DNA of 64,000 nucleotides. It comes from Trogon surrucura (taxonomy: Eukaryota > Chordata > Aves > Trogoniformes > Trogonidae). Position numbers and translations under genes: made by a program. Location: assembly GCA_020746105.1 (NCBI GenBank), contig CM036657.1:4770468-4834467 (forward strand), read 5' to 3'. Positions 41,893-49,355 of this stretch are shown piece after piece (position 1 is the first letter of the stretch; each line of letters begins with the position of its first letter). The notes under the pieces were generated by a model that was not told the origin of the DNA, searched no databases, and saw nothing but the letters and a program-made list of their open reading frames with translations.

Positions 41893-41991
41893 ACAGGGTT
41901 ATTCACGTGCTTATTCAGACGATGGTGCGCTTCGAGCCACAAGTGGGGCCTTCCTGGTGGGTTACCTTCTGGATAGTATTGGGTAGTATTG

Positions 41992-42803
41992 TGTCCTGGG
42001 TTTAGCTAAAAAACCCAGTCCTGTTTAGTGATTTTTACTTTCCAGTTTAGTGTCTTCTAAAAGGCTGCACGTTCTGAAGTCAGCAGCATGTTTTTGCAGA
42101 CAGTGTGTGCTACTGGCAGTGATAACACCTGATGTTTACAGTCACTGCCTGGGACTGGTGTGCAGAAAGGCTCTTGCTTATACTTATTCCTATAGTGACC
42201 AAGGCCACTGCTGGCTCTTGTGTGCCACGCTGGGGGTGCTGGGTAGTAAGAGGGGGGCACAAGGAAGTAAAAGGTGGCACCTCCGGGGGGTAATAGACAG
42301 GACAGGTGACCAACGAGAGTATTCCATCCCATATACGTCATATTTAGTATAAATTGAGTGATCACGAGAGTTTCGGCCCTTCTTTTCGCCCTTTCTTTTC
42401 TGCAATGGCCGGTGTCCAGAGAGGACTCCATCTGACCTCCTGCTTTTGATCCGGATCCTGAGTTCCCGAATCCAGCTCCCTGCATCCAGCTCCCGCCGCC
42501 GCCGCTGAGCCTGGGGTTTCCCCAGTGCCTCCTGCTCTGCAGCACCAGTGGTGATTTCTATTGGGGGAGGGAGTCGGGTTTGATATCGGGCTATTATCTA
42601 TAGTTGTATATAGTTCTTTACTTTTATGTTTTTACCATTATTCCTATTACTTTCATTAAAGCTGTTCTAGTTCTAGTTTTTTTCTTCTCTCATCCGTAAA
42701 GTCTCTCTGCCTCATTCCCTTTTCTCTTCCTGTTTGGGGGGGGAAGAGGGGGTTAGAGAGCGTCTGTCCGCGTTAGTGGCCGGCCCAGCCCTAACCCGCG
42801 ACA
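41992..42803 (+). repeat. 5' LTR, family 1 (812 bp)
   Basis: TGTCCTGGGTTTAGCTAAAA to CCCTAACCCGCGACA. A TATA box (TATAAA) lies at 42348-42353 and a poly(A) signal (ATTAAA) at 42655-42660, so R is about 42,380-42,680. A 100-codon frame and its 162-codon antisense frame inside the LTR are not credible genes. Confidence 0.95.
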
Positions 42804-42810
42804 GATTTAT

Positions 42811-42828
42811 TGGCGCCCAACGTGGGGC
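42811..42828 (+). promoter_or_regulatory. Primer binding site (tRNA-Lys1,2 type)
   Basis: TGGCGCCCAACGTGGGGC, 7 nt after the LTR. This 18-mer is the site known from foamy viruses and some betaretroviruses that prime with tRNA-Lys1,2, rather than the Leu site for which ERV-L was named. Confidence 0.9.
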
Positions 42829-43001
42829 AGGAAAACAAACACCAATCAGGCTCAGACTATTTTACCAGTTATTTAGACACAACTGGGCTCTGATATATTG
42901 CCCGCATAGTTTAAATTCCATCCGGCGCATTTGAGAGTGTATCAGATCTTTTCTTTGAGAGTTCTGAAGGGTTAGAGGAGAAAAACCGGACAGCTCACAT
43001 C

Positions 43002-44792
43002 ATGTTATCGGTCGGTGAAATGTTATGTCATGTTCTTTTAAATGTGGGTTCCTCCCTGGGTGTCAAAATTTTGTCCAAACTCTCGAGTGTGATTTGGTAT
43101 ATCGTTCTGTGGTTTGCCTGTTCTGGTTTCATGACAAGATTTCTCACTGTACTGGGTTTCTTTGGGTCGGTGTATTCTGCAGTAATTTGGGTGATCGGCA
43201 TACCTGAATACCTTAAGAGCACAATGATGAATTTTGTTTTTAACTACACTTTCAATTTCACCTTAGGAAATTATACCAATTTGTTTGCTAATCTGAGTAT
43301 ACCAGGTTTTGGGGATTGTGATTGTGATTGCGAATGCAGTTATTTTAATCGAAAGATTGAGTTGTTATTGATTCTGATGTTAATGCCCATGAATCTCTTG
43401 GCATTGTGGCGTTTCTGTAGGAATTTGTGCAAGTCATTGAGTATCACTGTGTCCTTTAACACTCAGTGTGTATCAGCAAATGTCGCCCCTGTGACTAGAA
43501 AGAAACATCGGAGAAAGTCAATTGCCCTACCAACAGATAACACAACTCCAGGACAAAGCCCTCCTAAAGTAGCACCATCAGATGACTCAGATTCAGACTC
43601 AGGAAAGAAGGCTGGTCCCCCAACCGATTCAGTATTAGAAAGGTTAGTTACGGCCTGGAAGGCAAGTCATCCATCATCAGATGATTCTGATCCAGGACAG
43701 GGTCCTTCCCAACCGAAGTCATCAGATGGTTCGAAGCCACAAACGGACGTAACTGTCAAACCTTTAACTCTGAGGGACATGAGAGATGTGAGAAAGGACT
43801 TTGGCCGTCGTGAGGGTGAATCATATTACAAGTGGTTACTCCGGTGCTGGGATAAAGGAGCCGAGACCATTAATCTGAACGGTAAAGAAGCCAAACAGCT
43901 GGGATCCCTGTCTGGAAACGCAGGCGTTGACACGGAACTTGCAAAAGACGACAACAGTCTCAGCCTCTGGAGACGACTCTTGACAGCTATTAAGAACCGT
44001 TATACCCACAAGGATGATATTCCTATTCACACAACCAACTGGACCAGTATGGAGAAAGGCATTAAGTTCCTGAGAGAACTAGCAGTGAGAGAGGTGATTT
44101 ACAGTGATCCACAAACAATCTTAAACCCTGATCAAATGCCCTGCCACAAACACGTTATTCAGATGTTCGTGAGGAGTGCCCCACCAGTGTATAAGCACAC
44201 CTTGTCAACAATGGTCTGGGCATTAGATGGAGATGGTCAGGTACCAACAGTGAGTGAAGTGGCCAACAAAGCACGACAGTATGAAGACAGTACTGCCAAT
44301 CCCCAACAAATTCAGATTGCTGCCATGGAAAAAATAATTGAGGAAAACAACAGATCACTGGAGAAATCAATTGGGAAAGCGATTGAGATAACAATGGAGA
44401 AAACCAATGAAGCAATCGAGAAAGCAATGGAGAAAAATAGTGACTCATTTGAGAAAACCAATCAATCATTAGAGAAGCTGATTGATGCATTGTCCAAGAG
44501 AGATGACAGACCTCAATGGAGCCGCGTTGATGCTGTTAGGAAATACAGACCTTCAAGATCAACTAAAAATGATGGCAACTTGTCACGGAATGACTTGTGG
44601 ATATTCCTACGTGGATATGGTGAGGACATGAGAAACTGGGATGGAAAACCTACTTCTGCTCTACGAGAACGAGTATCCAATTTGCGAAACACCAACAGAA
44701 GACAACAATCTGCCACGAGAAGGAATAATCGGAATGTAAATGTAGTTAATACTGTGAATCAGGTAAACCCCGTGAATCAACCTCAAAATTAG
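43002..44792 (+). CDS. gag: gag of ERVL-like provirus with membrane/glycosylated N-terminal module
   Basis: 596 codons; the ATG at 43002 is the first after the primer binding site. Residues ~29-67 are two hydrophobic segments. Sequons follow at N81, N85, N90 and N97, then a Cys/Asp patch (DCDCDCEC, 105-112) and a third hydrophobic segment at 119-136. A basic stretch (RKKHRRK) and an acidic Ser/Pro-rich linker lead to capsid homology at about 257-432 (YYKWLLRCWDKGAETINLNG, SMEKGIKFLRELAVREV), typical of ERV-L Gag. A Lys/Glu helical repeat spans ~440-493 and an Arg/Asn-rich tail ends the protein. No CCHC zinc knuckle is present. It ends in TAG, in frame with pol. Capsid assignment is firm; membrane topology is inference. 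Confidence 0.93.
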   Translation: MLSVGEMLCHVLLNVGSSLGVKILSKLSSVIWYIVLWFACSGFMTRFLTVLGFFGSVYSAVIWVIGIPEYLKSTMMNFVFNYTFNFTLGNYTNLFANLSIPGFGDCDCDCECSYFNRKIELLLILMLMPMNLLALWRFCRNLCKSLSITVSFNTQCVSANVAPVTRKKHRRKSIALPTDNTTPGQSPPKVAPSDDSDSDSGKKAGPPTDSVLERLVTAWKASHPSSDDSDPGQGPSQPKSSDGSKPQTDVTVKPLTLRDMRDVRKDFGRREGESYYKWLLRCWDKGAETINLNGKEAKQLGSLSGNAGVDTELAKDDNSLSLWRRLLTAIKNRYTHKDDIPIHTTNWTSMEKGIKFLRELAVREVIYSDPQTILNPDQMPCHKHVIQMFVRSAPPVYKHTLSTMVWALDGDGQVPTVSEVANKARQYEDSTANPQQIQIAAMEKIIEENNRSLEKSIGKAIEITMEKTNEAIEKAMEKNSDSFEKTNQSLEKLIDALSKRDDRPQWSRVDAVRKYRPSRSTKNDGNLSRNDLWIFLRGYGEDMRNWDGKPTSALRERVSNLRNTNRRQQSATRRNNRNVNVVNTVNQVNPVNQPQN

Positions 44793-44867
44793 AGGGGCCC
44801 TGCCTCCAGCCAGGTGGAGGAGAGGGACAACCGAGTTTATTGGACTGTGTGGATTCGGTGGCCTGGC
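44790..44867 (+). promoter_or_regulatory. Candidate gag-pol UAG readthrough signal with pseudoknot
   Basis: After TAG (44790-44792) comes a 10-nt spacer, then the stem CCTCCA (44803-44808) pairing with TGGAGG (44815-44820). The 6-nt loop GCCAGG (44809-44814) is fully complementary to CCTGGC at 44862-44867. Gag and pol are in the same frame and pol has no ATG near its start. All these elements are also present in copy 1 (TAG at 2267-2269). Confidence 0.6.
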
Positions 44868-47800
44868 ACATTAGAACCACGAAAATATAGAGCTCTGGTG
44901 GACACTGGTGCACAGTGCACTCTAATGCCATCGAATCATACAAGTACTGAAACTGTTACTATTTCTGGAGTGACGGGTGGTTCTCAACAATTGTCTGTAT
45001 TGGAAGCCGAAATGAGCCTTACTGGGAATATGTGGAAAAAGCACCCCATAGTGACTGGTCCAAATGCCCCATGCATTCTTGGCATAGACTTCCTCAAGAA
45101 AGGGTATTATAAGGATCCAAGAGGGTATCGATGGGCTTTTGGTGTAGCAGCTGTAGAGACTGAGGACATTGATCAGCTGTCTAGCTTGCCCAAACTTTCA
45201 GAGGAGTCTAGTGTTGTAGGGCTGATGAAAACTGAAGACCAACAGGTACCAATTGCTACTAAAACAGTACATCGACGACAATATCGTACCAACCGAGACT
45301 CTGTAGTTCCCATCCATAAGCTGATACGCCAACTAGAAAGTCAAGGAGTGATCAGCAAAGCTCGCTCACCATTTAACAGTCCTATCTGGCCTGTGCGTAA
45401 GTCTGATGGAGAATGGAGATTGACTGTAGACTATCGTGGCCTAAATGAGGTTACACCACCGATGAGTGCTGCCGTGCCGGACATGTTAGATCTTCAGTAT
45501 GAGCTGGAGTCAAAGGCAGCTAAGTGGTATGCCACAATTGACATTGCTAATGCATTTTTCTCTATTCCTATAGCAGCAGAATGCAGGCCGCAGTTTGCTT
45601 TCACCTGGAGGGGTATCCAGTACACCTGGAACCGACTGCCCCAGGGGTGGAAACACAGCCCTACCATCTGCCATGGACTGATCCACACCGCCCTGGAGAG
45701 AGGTGGAGCTCCGGAACATCTGCAATACATTGATGACATCATTGTATGGGGTAACACAGCAGAAGAAGTTTTCACAAAAGGTAAGAAAATAATTGAGATT
45801 CTTTTGGATGCTGGTTTTGCCATAAAGAGAAGCAAGGTCAAGGGACCTGCACGAGAGATCCAGTTTTTGGGAGTGAAATGGCAAGATGGGCGTCGCCAGA
45901 TCCCAATAGACGTGATTGACACAATATCAGCTATGTTGCCACCAACTAACAAAAAAGAAACACAATCCTTCTTAGGTACTGTGGGTTTCTGGAGAATGCA
46001 TATTCCTGGTTATAGTCAGATTGTGAAACCTCTTTTTGATGTGACTCGAAAGAAAAACAAATTTCAATGGGGCCCTGAACAGCAACAGGCCTTTGAACAA
46101 ATCAAACAAGAGATTGTACAGGCAGTAGCTCTTGGGCCAATCCGAACAGGGCAAGATATTAAAAATTTGCTATACACTGCAGCTGGGGACAATGGTCCTA
46201 CCTGGAGCCTTTGGCAGAGGGCACCAGGAGAAACTCGAGGTCGACCCTTAGGATTTTGGAGCCGAAAATATAGAGGCTCTGAGGCCAACTATACTGCAAC
46301 TGAAAAAGAAATATTGGCCGCATATGAAGGAGTTAAAGCTGCTTCGGAAGTGATTGGTACTGAGGCACAGCTTCTCCTAGTACCACGAATACCAGTCCTA
46401 AACTGGATGTTCAAGAGTAAAGTTCCTTCCACACATCATGCCACTGATGCTACATGGAGTAAATGGACTGCCCTAATTACACAGAGAGCTCGAATGGGTC
46501 ATCACAATCGTCCAGGACTTTTAGAGGTAATCGCAGACTGGCCACAAGGTAAAGACCTTGCAATGCCCGCTAAGGAGGTGGTGACACGTGCTGAGGAAGC
46601 TCCACCATATAATCAGTTACCAGATAATGAGAAGCAGTATGCCCTGTTTACTGATGGATCTTGCCGCCTTGTAGGAAATCGTCGTAAGTGGAAAGCTGCT
46701 GTGTGGAGTCCCACACGACGAGTTGCAGAGGCAACTGAGGGAGAAGGTGGATCGAGTCAGTTTGCAGAGGTAAAAGCCATCCAGCTGGCCTTAGACATTG
46801 CTGAACGGGAAAAATGGCCAGTGCTCTATCTTTATACTGACTCATGGATGGTGGCAAATGCTTTTTGGGGTTGGTTAAAACAGTGGAAGCACAATAACTG
46901 GCAGCGCAGAGGTAAGCCTATTTGGGCTGCTGAACTATGGCGAGACATTGCTGCTCGGCTAGAGAACTTAGTTGTAAAGGTACGCCACGTAGATGCCCAT
47001 GTGCCCAAAAGTCGTGCCACTGAGGAACATCGACACAACCAGCAAGTGGATCAGGCTGCTCAAGTGTTCCAGATAGACTTGGACTGGGAACACAGAGGTG
47101 AACTGTTTCTAGCTCGGTGGGCCCACGACACTTCAGGACATCAGGGAAGAGATGGAACATACAGATGGGCTCGTGACCGAGGGGTGGATTTAACTATGGA
47201 CGCTATTGCGCAGGTTATCCATGATTGTGAAATATGCGCTGAAATTAAGCAAGCTAAGCGATTAAAACCTTTGTGGTATGGGGAACGATGGTTAAAATAT
47301 AGGTATGGGGAGGCCTGGCAGATTGATTACATCACACTTCCTCTAACTCGCCAGGGTAAGCGCTATGTGCTCACTATGGTGGAAGCAACTACCGGATGGT
47401 TAGAAACGTATCCTGTGCCTCACGCCACTGCCAGAAACACTATCTTGGGCCTAGAAAAGCAGATCCTGTGGCGACATGGCACTCCAGAAAGAATTGAATC
47501 AGATAATGGGACTCATTTCAAAAACAATCTTATAGACAATTGGGCTAAAGAACATGGTATTGAATGGGTATATCATATCCCTTATCATGCACAAGCCTCT
47601 GGGAAAATTGAACGATACAATGGACTGTTAAAAACTACTCTGAAAGCAATGGGAGGTGGAACTTTTAAAAACTGGGACAAGCATTTAGCACAAGCCACCT
47701 GGTTAGTTAACACCAGAGGATCCATCAATCGTGCTGGTCCTGCCCATTCAGAACCTTTACATACAGTAGATGGAGATAAAGTCCCTGTGGTGTATGAAAG

Positions 47801-47987
47801 GAATTTGTTGGGGAAGACTGTCTGGGTATTTCCTGCTTTGGGCAAAGGCAAACCCATTCGTGGAGTTGCTTTCGCTCAAGGACCTGGAACTACTTGGTGG
47901 GTGATGATGAAAGATGGTGAAGTTCAATGTGTACCTCAAGGAAATTTAACTCTGGGTGAGAATACTCGATTTAATCCTATATGATGT
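44793..47987 (+). CDS. pol: pol (protease, RT, RNase H, integrase) of ERVL-like provirus
   Basis: Open from the gag TAG to TGA at 47985. Numbering from the GTG at 44814, which gives 1056 residues: protease D30 in LVDTGAQ; RT D243 (TIDIANAFF) and YIDD at 305-308; RNase H D614, E652, D676 and a probable D746; integrase zinc-binding H771, H776, C805 and C808; catalytic D838, D897 and E933 with the classical 35-residue D-E spacing. No catalytic residue looks lost. There is no dUTPase domain after integrase, unlike mammalian ERV-L as I remember it. The first in-frame ATG lies inside protease, so expression most likely needs readthrough of the gag stop. Reverse transcription and integration are the known roles of these domains. 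Confidence 0.95.
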
Positions 47988-48303
47988 TGTTACATAATAC
48001 TAACAGTGTTCAATAAGTGTTTTTCAGAATAATAACCAGTGATGACCAGAGCTGACCTCATCGAGTGACATCCAGCAACTGAGCTAGCCTTGTTGAGTGA
48101 CATCCAGTAACTTCTTCGAAGTGAACCTACAAACTATGGACATGAACTGTAACGAATCCCACATGAACTTTCCTGCCCTGAGAGACTGCTATGACGGATA
48201 GAACCCACGATTATGAACTTTATGAACTTACTGAACTTTTCCTATAAGTAGATCATTAGCTCGTGATCAGTATGACGTAAATGGTATGGAATAAGGGGTG
48301 GAA
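47988..48303 (+). other. 3' internal region and polypurine tract, no env
   Basis: 316 bp without a meaningful frame. It holds a repeated gagtgacatccag(c/t)aact unit (about 48,064 and 48,095) and three tatgaact/ctgaactt-like units near 48,215-48,240. AAGGGGTGGAA at 48293-48303 abuts the LTR and is the likely polypurine tract. Confidence 0.8.
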
Positions 48304-49115
48304 TGTCCTGGGTTTAGCTAAAAAACCCAGTCCTGTTTAGTGATTTTTACTTTCCAGTTTAGTGTCTTCTAAAAGGCTGCACGTTCTGAAGTCAGCAGCA
48401 TGTTTTTGCAGACAGTGTGTGCTACTGGCAGTGATAACACCTGATGTTTACAGTCACTGCCTGGGACTGGTGTGCAGAAAGGCTCTTGCTTATACTTATT
48501 CCTATAGTGACCAAGGCCACTGCTGGCTCTTGTGTGCCACGCTGGGGGTGCTGGGTAGTAAGAGGGGGGCACAAGGAAGTAAAAGGTGGCACCTCCGGGG
48601 GGTAATAGACAGGACAGGTGACCAACGAGAGTATTCCATCCCATATACGTCATATTTAGTATAAATTGAGTGATCACGAGAGTTTCGGCCCTTCTTTTCG
48701 CCCTTTCTTTTCTGCAATGGCCGGTGTCCAGAGAGGACTCCATCTGACCTCCTGCTTTTGATCCGGATCCTGAGTTCCCGAATCCAGCTCCCTGCATCCA
48801 GCTCCCGCCGCCGCCGCTGAGCCTGGGGTTTCCCCAGTGCCTCCTGCTCTGCAGCACCAGTGGTGATTTCTATTGGGGGAGGGAGTCGGGTTTGATATCG
48901 GGCTATTATCTATAGTTGTATATAGTTCTTTACTTTTATGTTTTTACCATTATTCCTATTACTTTCATTAAAGCTGTTCTAGTTCTAGTTTTTTTCTTCT
49001 CTCATCCGTAAAGTCTCTCTGCCTCATTCCCTTTTCTCTTCCTGTTTGGGGGGGGAAGAGGGGGTTAGAGAGCGTCTGTCCGCGTTAGTGGCCGGCCCAG
49101 CCCTAACCCGCGACA
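48304..49115 (+). repeat. 3' LTR, family 1 (812 bp)
   Basis: Same length and, by direct reading, the same sequence as 41992-42803, followed by the TATTG duplication. Confidence 0.95.
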
Positions 49116-49355
49116 TATTGTGACAGGATTTAGTCAGGGATAGTTTTTGGTGATGCTCTGGTACTTGAATCCAGACTTTCTCAGCACACTGGAAGTTGCT
49201 GTGCTTGTACAGTGGTTTGAAAATACTGCACAAGAGCCTAGATGCAAAAAAAATCCAGAACGATTCAAAAGATCTATCATTAATTGACCACTTCTGGGCC
49301 TGTCTGTCTTTACACAGGATGACAACACTGCTCACTGAGATGGGGTTTTGTACAG

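Follow-up and report, generated by a model that had tools for sequence, protein, structure and literature searches.

A predicted membrane-spanning module with clustered sequons at the Gag N-terminus of an env-less, ERVL-like provirus

The provirus and its classification

The window (the whole stretch of 64,000 nucleotides that was analysed) lies on contig C60 (9.3 Mb), and the genome searched comprises 1.17 Gb. It contains a provirus on the forward strand, flanked on both sides by the 5-bp target-site duplication TATTG (41987..41991 and 49116..49120). The 5′ LTR (41992..42803) and 3′ LTR (48304..49115) are identical over their 812 bp, and the insertion is therefore young, as the original prediction had stated. 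A primer-binding-site-like sequence, recognised from the letters themselves (TGGCGCCCAACGTGGGGC; 42811..42828), follows the 5′ LTR; we take it to be of the Lys1,2 type. The gag ORF (43002..44792) encodes 596 aa and ends in TAG, and pol (44793..47984; protease, RT, RNase H, and integrase; 1063 aa) continues in the same frame with this one TAG between them. The first ATG downstream of the 5′ LTR is the start of Gag, and its frame is closed upstream by a stop at 42912. The 319 bp that separate pol from the 3′ LTR (47985..48303) are interrupted by stops in all three forward frames, so the provirus has no env, which agrees with the earlier claim. An Rfam search gave no matches.

Target-site duplications of 5 bp are typical of ERV-L, and TATTG on both sides of the provirus conforms to this. 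A dUTPase is not obligatory for all class III elements; by Pfam only protease, RT, RNase H, and integrase were detected here, and because no dUTPase was found we call the provirus ERVL-like. The best matches of its RT among solved sequences were p80 RT and Pr125Pol entries, which we presume to be of murine and foamy type, respectively, and their scores were close. The zinc knuckle C-X2-C-X4-H-X4-C is absent from the window Gag, and Gag proteins without a zinc knuckle are described for spumaviruses, HERV-L, and MuERV-L in the available text of one source (PMC2717909). The same text assigns a dUTPase to MuERV-L (PMC2717909), in contrast to the window provirus.

The N-terminal module of Gag

Membrane spans were scored with a simplified, centre-weighted biological hydrophobicity scale, with a weighting of our own choice. 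On this scale, three segments at the N-terminus of the window Gag reach membrane-span grade: TM1 (residues 27-43; 43080..43130; insertion score -1.5), TM2 (residues 47-67; 43140..43202; -1.0), and TM3 (residues 119-135; 43356..43406; -2.0), which is followed by basic residues. No segment of this grade occurs in the remaining Gag or in Pol on the same scale. Three span segments were reached in none of 300 whole-Gag shuffles (19-residue windows), and when only the module was shuffled, three or more appeared in 68 of 500 cases; the span signal therefore reflects the hydrophobic composition of the module and not the order of its residues.

Between TM2 and TM3 lies a loop (residues 68-118; 43203..43355) that the charge pattern predicts to be lumenal. 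It carries a cluster of four sequons (NYT81, NFT85, NYT90, and NLS97; 43242..43298) and the motif DCDCDCEC (residues 105-112; 43314..43337). Hydrophobic segments, four clustered sequons, and this cysteine patch had all been named in the original prediction, and all are present. The probability of four sequons was 0.0026 by whole-Gag shuffle, 0.0032 by loop shuffle, and 0.024 by module shuffle, values that are uncorrected for a feature picked after being seen; conservation of the sequons counts for more than these values. In Pfam, with E up to 10, the window-type module and the two other module types described below (L055 and L053) had no match, and the module of one relative (L091) matched TMEM9 at E 0.2, under the cut-off for that family.

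Charged residues bear on the topology of the module. Within 40 residues past TM3 there are 8-9 Lys or Arg residues in the window and in seven aligned members of a young subgroup of relatives (see below); in the window they comprise R137, R140, and K144, and then the basic run RKKHRRK (residues 166-172; 43497..43517), which is predicted to be cytosolic. The loop is net acidic in the same Gags. The turn between TM1 and TM2 has one or two Lys or Arg residues (one Arg in the window, two in most aligned subgroup copies), and since the window N-terminus carries two Lys against this single Arg, charge alone leaves the orientation of TM1 and TM2 unfixed. The basic side past TM3 favours a cytosolic capsid and therefore a lumenal loop, which is also the arrangement that assembly requires. 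N81 is 14 residues from the end of TM2, a distance that suffices for N-glycosylation. Every Met codon ahead of residue 260 falls inside the module, and translation that initiates at an AUG and retains the linker must therefore begin there. By reasoning only, TM1 was considered unlikely to be a cleaved signal peptide; TM2 would then place the loop in the cytosol.

Downstream of the linker, a capsid-like region (residues 251-437; 43752..44312) is common to the L055- and L053-type Gags, with residues 251-430 covered by the comparison. The label "capsid" is based on position and conservation because Pfam and solved structures gave no match for this region. It is followed by a long-helix, coiled-coil-like region (residues 438-498; 44313..44495) in a low-confidence AlphaFold model; in this interval, a repeated EK-rich stretch resembling a coiled coil varies in length among copies. 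The whole Gag has no family in Pfam (DUF2229 at E 0.22 is far under its cut-off) and no relative among solved structures (two matches at E 0.5-0.7), and a search of viral contigs with Gag and Pol gave no relative. AlphaFold without an alignment returned low-confidence models for the whole Gag (mean pLDDT 42.6) and for residues 1-146 (mean pLDDT 51.5), and structure prediction of the N-terminus, which had been proposed as a check on the module, gave no structural support.

Copies, relatives, and parallel lineages

Copies of the window-type element were collected within the one genome. Their number is a lower bound, as 40 of 376 candidates were scored, all 99-100% identical over the module. Among these 40 copies (39 fetched plus the window), which were ranked by module similarity so that conservation is flattered, gag is open for at least 580 codons in 28 and the module is open in 35. 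All 35 open modules have the four sequons, and 33 have exact DCDCDCEC. Loss or decay of the module in most copies, which would have spoken against the original prediction, was not seen, but picking copies by module similarity makes this an unfair test.

Pooled over the 28 open gags, pN/pS was 0.375 for the module, and by part it was 3.76 in TM1 (on few changes), 0.80 in TM2, 0.136 in the loop, and 0.083 in TM3. Corresponding values were 0.757 in the linker (residues 141-250), 0.101 in the capsid, and 0.182 in the C-terminal part of Gag. The module looks to be under purifying but moderate selection by these ratios. Purifying selection on spans and sequons had been named as what would support the original prediction, and among copies within one genome it is apparent for the loop and TM3 and not for TM1, where four replacements and no silent changes are shared. 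Replacements in the three spans gave no clear signal of avoiding polar residues (P 0.31, 0.049, and 0.24). The N/S ratio among the 35 open-module copies was 0.40 for shared variants and 0.32 for single variants, and because the two are similar, selection during spread is inseparable from decay after insertion. An unconstrained TM1, span replacements that are not clearly conservative, and the likeness of shared and single variants would all suit Gags whose N-terminal segments go unused, with help in trans or another start and a neutral hydrophobic stretch. We consider this improbable, given the pN/pS of 0.14 in the loop and 0.08 in TM3, the position of the module start at the first AUG after the LTR, and the presence of modules that older lineages have kept and that have parallels elsewhere among the related lineages.

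A query with the module of another element, L048, retrieved 30 loci. Fourteen of these (L082 and L085-L097) form a young subgroup with 78-85% identity across the N-terminal 300 residues of Gag, and 13 of the 14 have four sequons. Seven older, decayed relatives (L069, L070, L073, L074, L075, L079, and L081) are 33-57% identical over their main in-frame pieces, with a short piece reaching 74%. They retain N81 in five cases, N85 in six, N90 in three (one only with an alignment gap closed), and N97 in three, and most have some form of the DC/EC motif. In the reading frame examined, TM3 could not be recognised in L074 and L075, nor TM1 in L073. Among the other loci, L068 is L048 itself, L077, L078, and L083 overlap L075, L073, and L069, respectively, and the matches to L071, L072, L076, L080, and L084 began no earlier than residues 70-123, so that these loci were left out of the counts. 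Module dN/dS was 0.41-0.55 between the window and seven of the 14 subgroup copies. Against the seven decayed relatives it was 0.63-0.96, as expected because much of their change is neutral decay. The L048 Gag itself is open (497 aa) and has TM1 and TM2 without the loop and TM3, so its span parity is altered. As a separate observation, dS between the window and subgroup copies is about 1.6 in TM3 (20 codons, noisy) and 0.02-0.17 in the linker (residues 147-250), in a comparison of 43353-43751 with L082, L085-L087, L089, L091, and L096; this unevenness looks like exchange of part of the module.

Related elements outside the window family were sought with two RT patterns that avoid its commonest codons, which gave 5 and 16 places; 20 of these 21 were fetched, and the remaining one adjoins a copy already in the set. 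A clear capsid match was present in 16 of the 20 loci, and 14 of the 16 carry one of three hydrophobic modules (two window-type, ten L055-type, and two L053-type). In L052 and L054 the capsid is present and no module was found. The L055-type module has hydrophobic segments, a basic turn, and a strong span at about residues 118-136. Six of the ten L055-type modules were read; all six have a sequon at N79, and their pN/pS is 0.47 overall, 0.98 in residues 1-53, 0.23 in residues 54-117, and 0.62 in the last span. The L053-type module has two spans and no sequons. Capsids of the L055 and L053 types are 49% and 38.5% identical to that of the window, and by hhalign the window-type module has no detectable homology to either of the other modules. 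The last span and the following WQGVW stretch look related between the L053 and L055 gags (blastp E 0.001), and apart from these their modules show no apparent relation.

Modules that differ beyond recognition across lineages with homologous capsids could also be small polytopic membrane proteins, of a channel or remodelling type, that are cleaved off Gag and serve as no assembly anchor. The variable linker (residues 141-250; pN/pS 0.76) would bear such a cut, but open copies encode module and capsid in a single frame, and we regard cleavage to a separate protein as unlikely.

The parallel lineages also bear on env. From the end of the pol match to the 3′ LTR there are only about 430 bp in L055-type L098 and about 310 bp in L053-type L101 and L102, so these elements have no room for env. 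L099 and L100 have neither a pol nor an LTR match and are hence uninformative on env. Four open stretches in other lineages gave no Env in Pfam (E 0.21 or worse). The original prediction had suggested that the module possibly replaces Env, for release, uptake, or intracellular budding. Particles would then leave the cell or spread from cell to cell with the glycosylated loop as their surface protein. A lumenal loop would indeed be exterior on a budded particle, and four sequons could shield it. The suggestion went unsupported and seems to us very unlikely, since L053-type elements are env-less with no sequons in Gag, L048 has an open Gag (judged on gag alone) that lacks the loop and TM3, the window module has no Pfam match, and the loop is short, at about 50 residues.

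Two further differences were seen between the window and L055-type lineages. The first third of Pol is about 80% identical and the capsids only 49%, which suggests recombinational exchange of gag or fast gag evolution. The gag frame of L055 runs into protease without a stop, whereas the window has a stop between gag and pol.

Proposed intracellular assembly and known systems

We lean towards reading the first 145 or so residues of Gag as a polytopic ER-insertion and anchor module for intracellular assembly. TM1 and TM2 would be taken up by the ER translocon during Gag synthesis, and the loop (residues 68-118) would face the lumen, where it could be N-glycosylated and its cysteines oxidised. 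TM3 would bring the chain back to the cytosol, and the linker, capsid, and Pol would stay there with the RNA. Gag anchored in this way may assemble on the ER membrane and bud into its lumen, for an intracellular life cycle without Env. In favour of ER routing and a lumenal loop are the spans, the basic residues past TM3, the 14 residues that separate TM2 from N81, the persistence of the module in copies and older relatives, and the parallel modules. To this extent the predicted passage of Gag through the ER with an exposed glycosylated loop is partly supported, while membrane insertion and glycosylation are steps that we infer. TM1 and residues 1-53 of the L055-type module show no constraint, which argues against an anchor. 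Because env is missing, the spans accompany a sequon-bearing loop, and such front ends occur in relatives, env-less elements of this kind probably assemble on internal membranes rather than leave the cell.

Gag of the mouse intracisternal A-particle (IAP) carries one N-terminal signal, and its SRP-mediated transport was reportedly described by Fehrmann in 2003. IAP, which is related to betaretroviruses (PMC3758190), is described in the available text as an env-less ERV in which the Gag N-terminus directs particles to the membrane of the ER (PMC2791754). The window element is likewise env-less and its Gag is predicted to be addressed to the ER, but it has three spans and a sequon- and cysteine-rich loop in place of one signal. 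MuERV-L, the source of epsilon particles in the mouse two-cell embryo, is an env-deficient ERV-L with particles in the ER, according to the portion available (PMC5930517). It shares the lack of env with the window element, for which particles in the ER are a prediction. Our best reading is that the window Gag acts in the manner of the ER-directed Gags of IAP and MuERV-L, with a module that is larger and polytopic. The claim that there is no described equivalent was consequently too strong in general, given these env-less mouse ERVs with ER-addressed Gag (PMC2791754, PMC5930517). For avian ERVL it stood, as no description of a polytopic or glycosylated Gag was found in the openly licensed literature as available, which is weak evidence of absence. 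What seems new is the combination of three spans, a glycan-prone loop, and differing modules on related capsids; the mechanism is known in kind.

The same spans and sequons would also fit a plasma-membrane anchor reached by the secretory route, a transmembrane stand-in for myristoylation, with budding at the surface and the glycosylated Gag loop outside. We think this rather unlikely for an env-less provirus, and the particles of described env-less mouse ERVs are intracellular in the text available (PMC2791754, PMC5930517). Assembly on the ER remains the reading that we prefer. To our knowledge, foamy virus Gag has no membrane spans; like the window Gag, it lacks a zinc knuckle. Foamy virus budding is reported to need the cognate glycoprotein (PMC2887381), in contrast to the env-less window element with its three predicted spans. 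In yeast, Ty1 Gag is made through SRP and translocated into the ER, with folding in the lumen and a later return to the cytosol as the proposed sequence of events (PMC3945221). This ER entry resembles what we propose for the window Gag, but the accessible part of that source describes no polytopic anchor. In murine leukaemia virus, glyco-Gag is described as an additional, longer form of Gag whose start lies in the leader (PMC3423011). The window module is encoded from the main gag start, and with ATG starts considered, there is none between the end of the LTR and 43002 that could serve as a separate upstream start; its Gag is only predicted to be glycosylation-prone.

A Gag that itself spans the membrane would explain, in specific terms open to experiment, how env-less ERVs of this kind may assemble. 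The three different hydrophobic front ends that accompany related capsids within a single genome form a natural series in which to study the passage from retrovirus to intracellular element. Should the loop prove to be glycosylated, the main gag start would yield a glycosylated Gag, in contrast to the glyco-Gag of murine leukaemia virus. A bolder idea, to which we give little credence, is that Gag is the glycoprotein of an ER-budded, vesicle-borne enveloped particle, with the loop facing outward and taking over some functions of Env, and that different membrane modules have repeatedly been fitted to one kind of capsid in ERVL-like lineages.

The distribution of copies among contigs is uneven. 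Among the scored copies, 10 of 40 of the window type (15-fold) and 7 of 40 of the L055 type (11-fold) lie on contigs C60-C64 and C86, which were chosen after the hits were seen and make up 19.2 Mb (1.6% of the genome). The W chromosome is described as a refugium for ERVs in the text available (PMC8310711), and our guess is that these contigs may belong to it.
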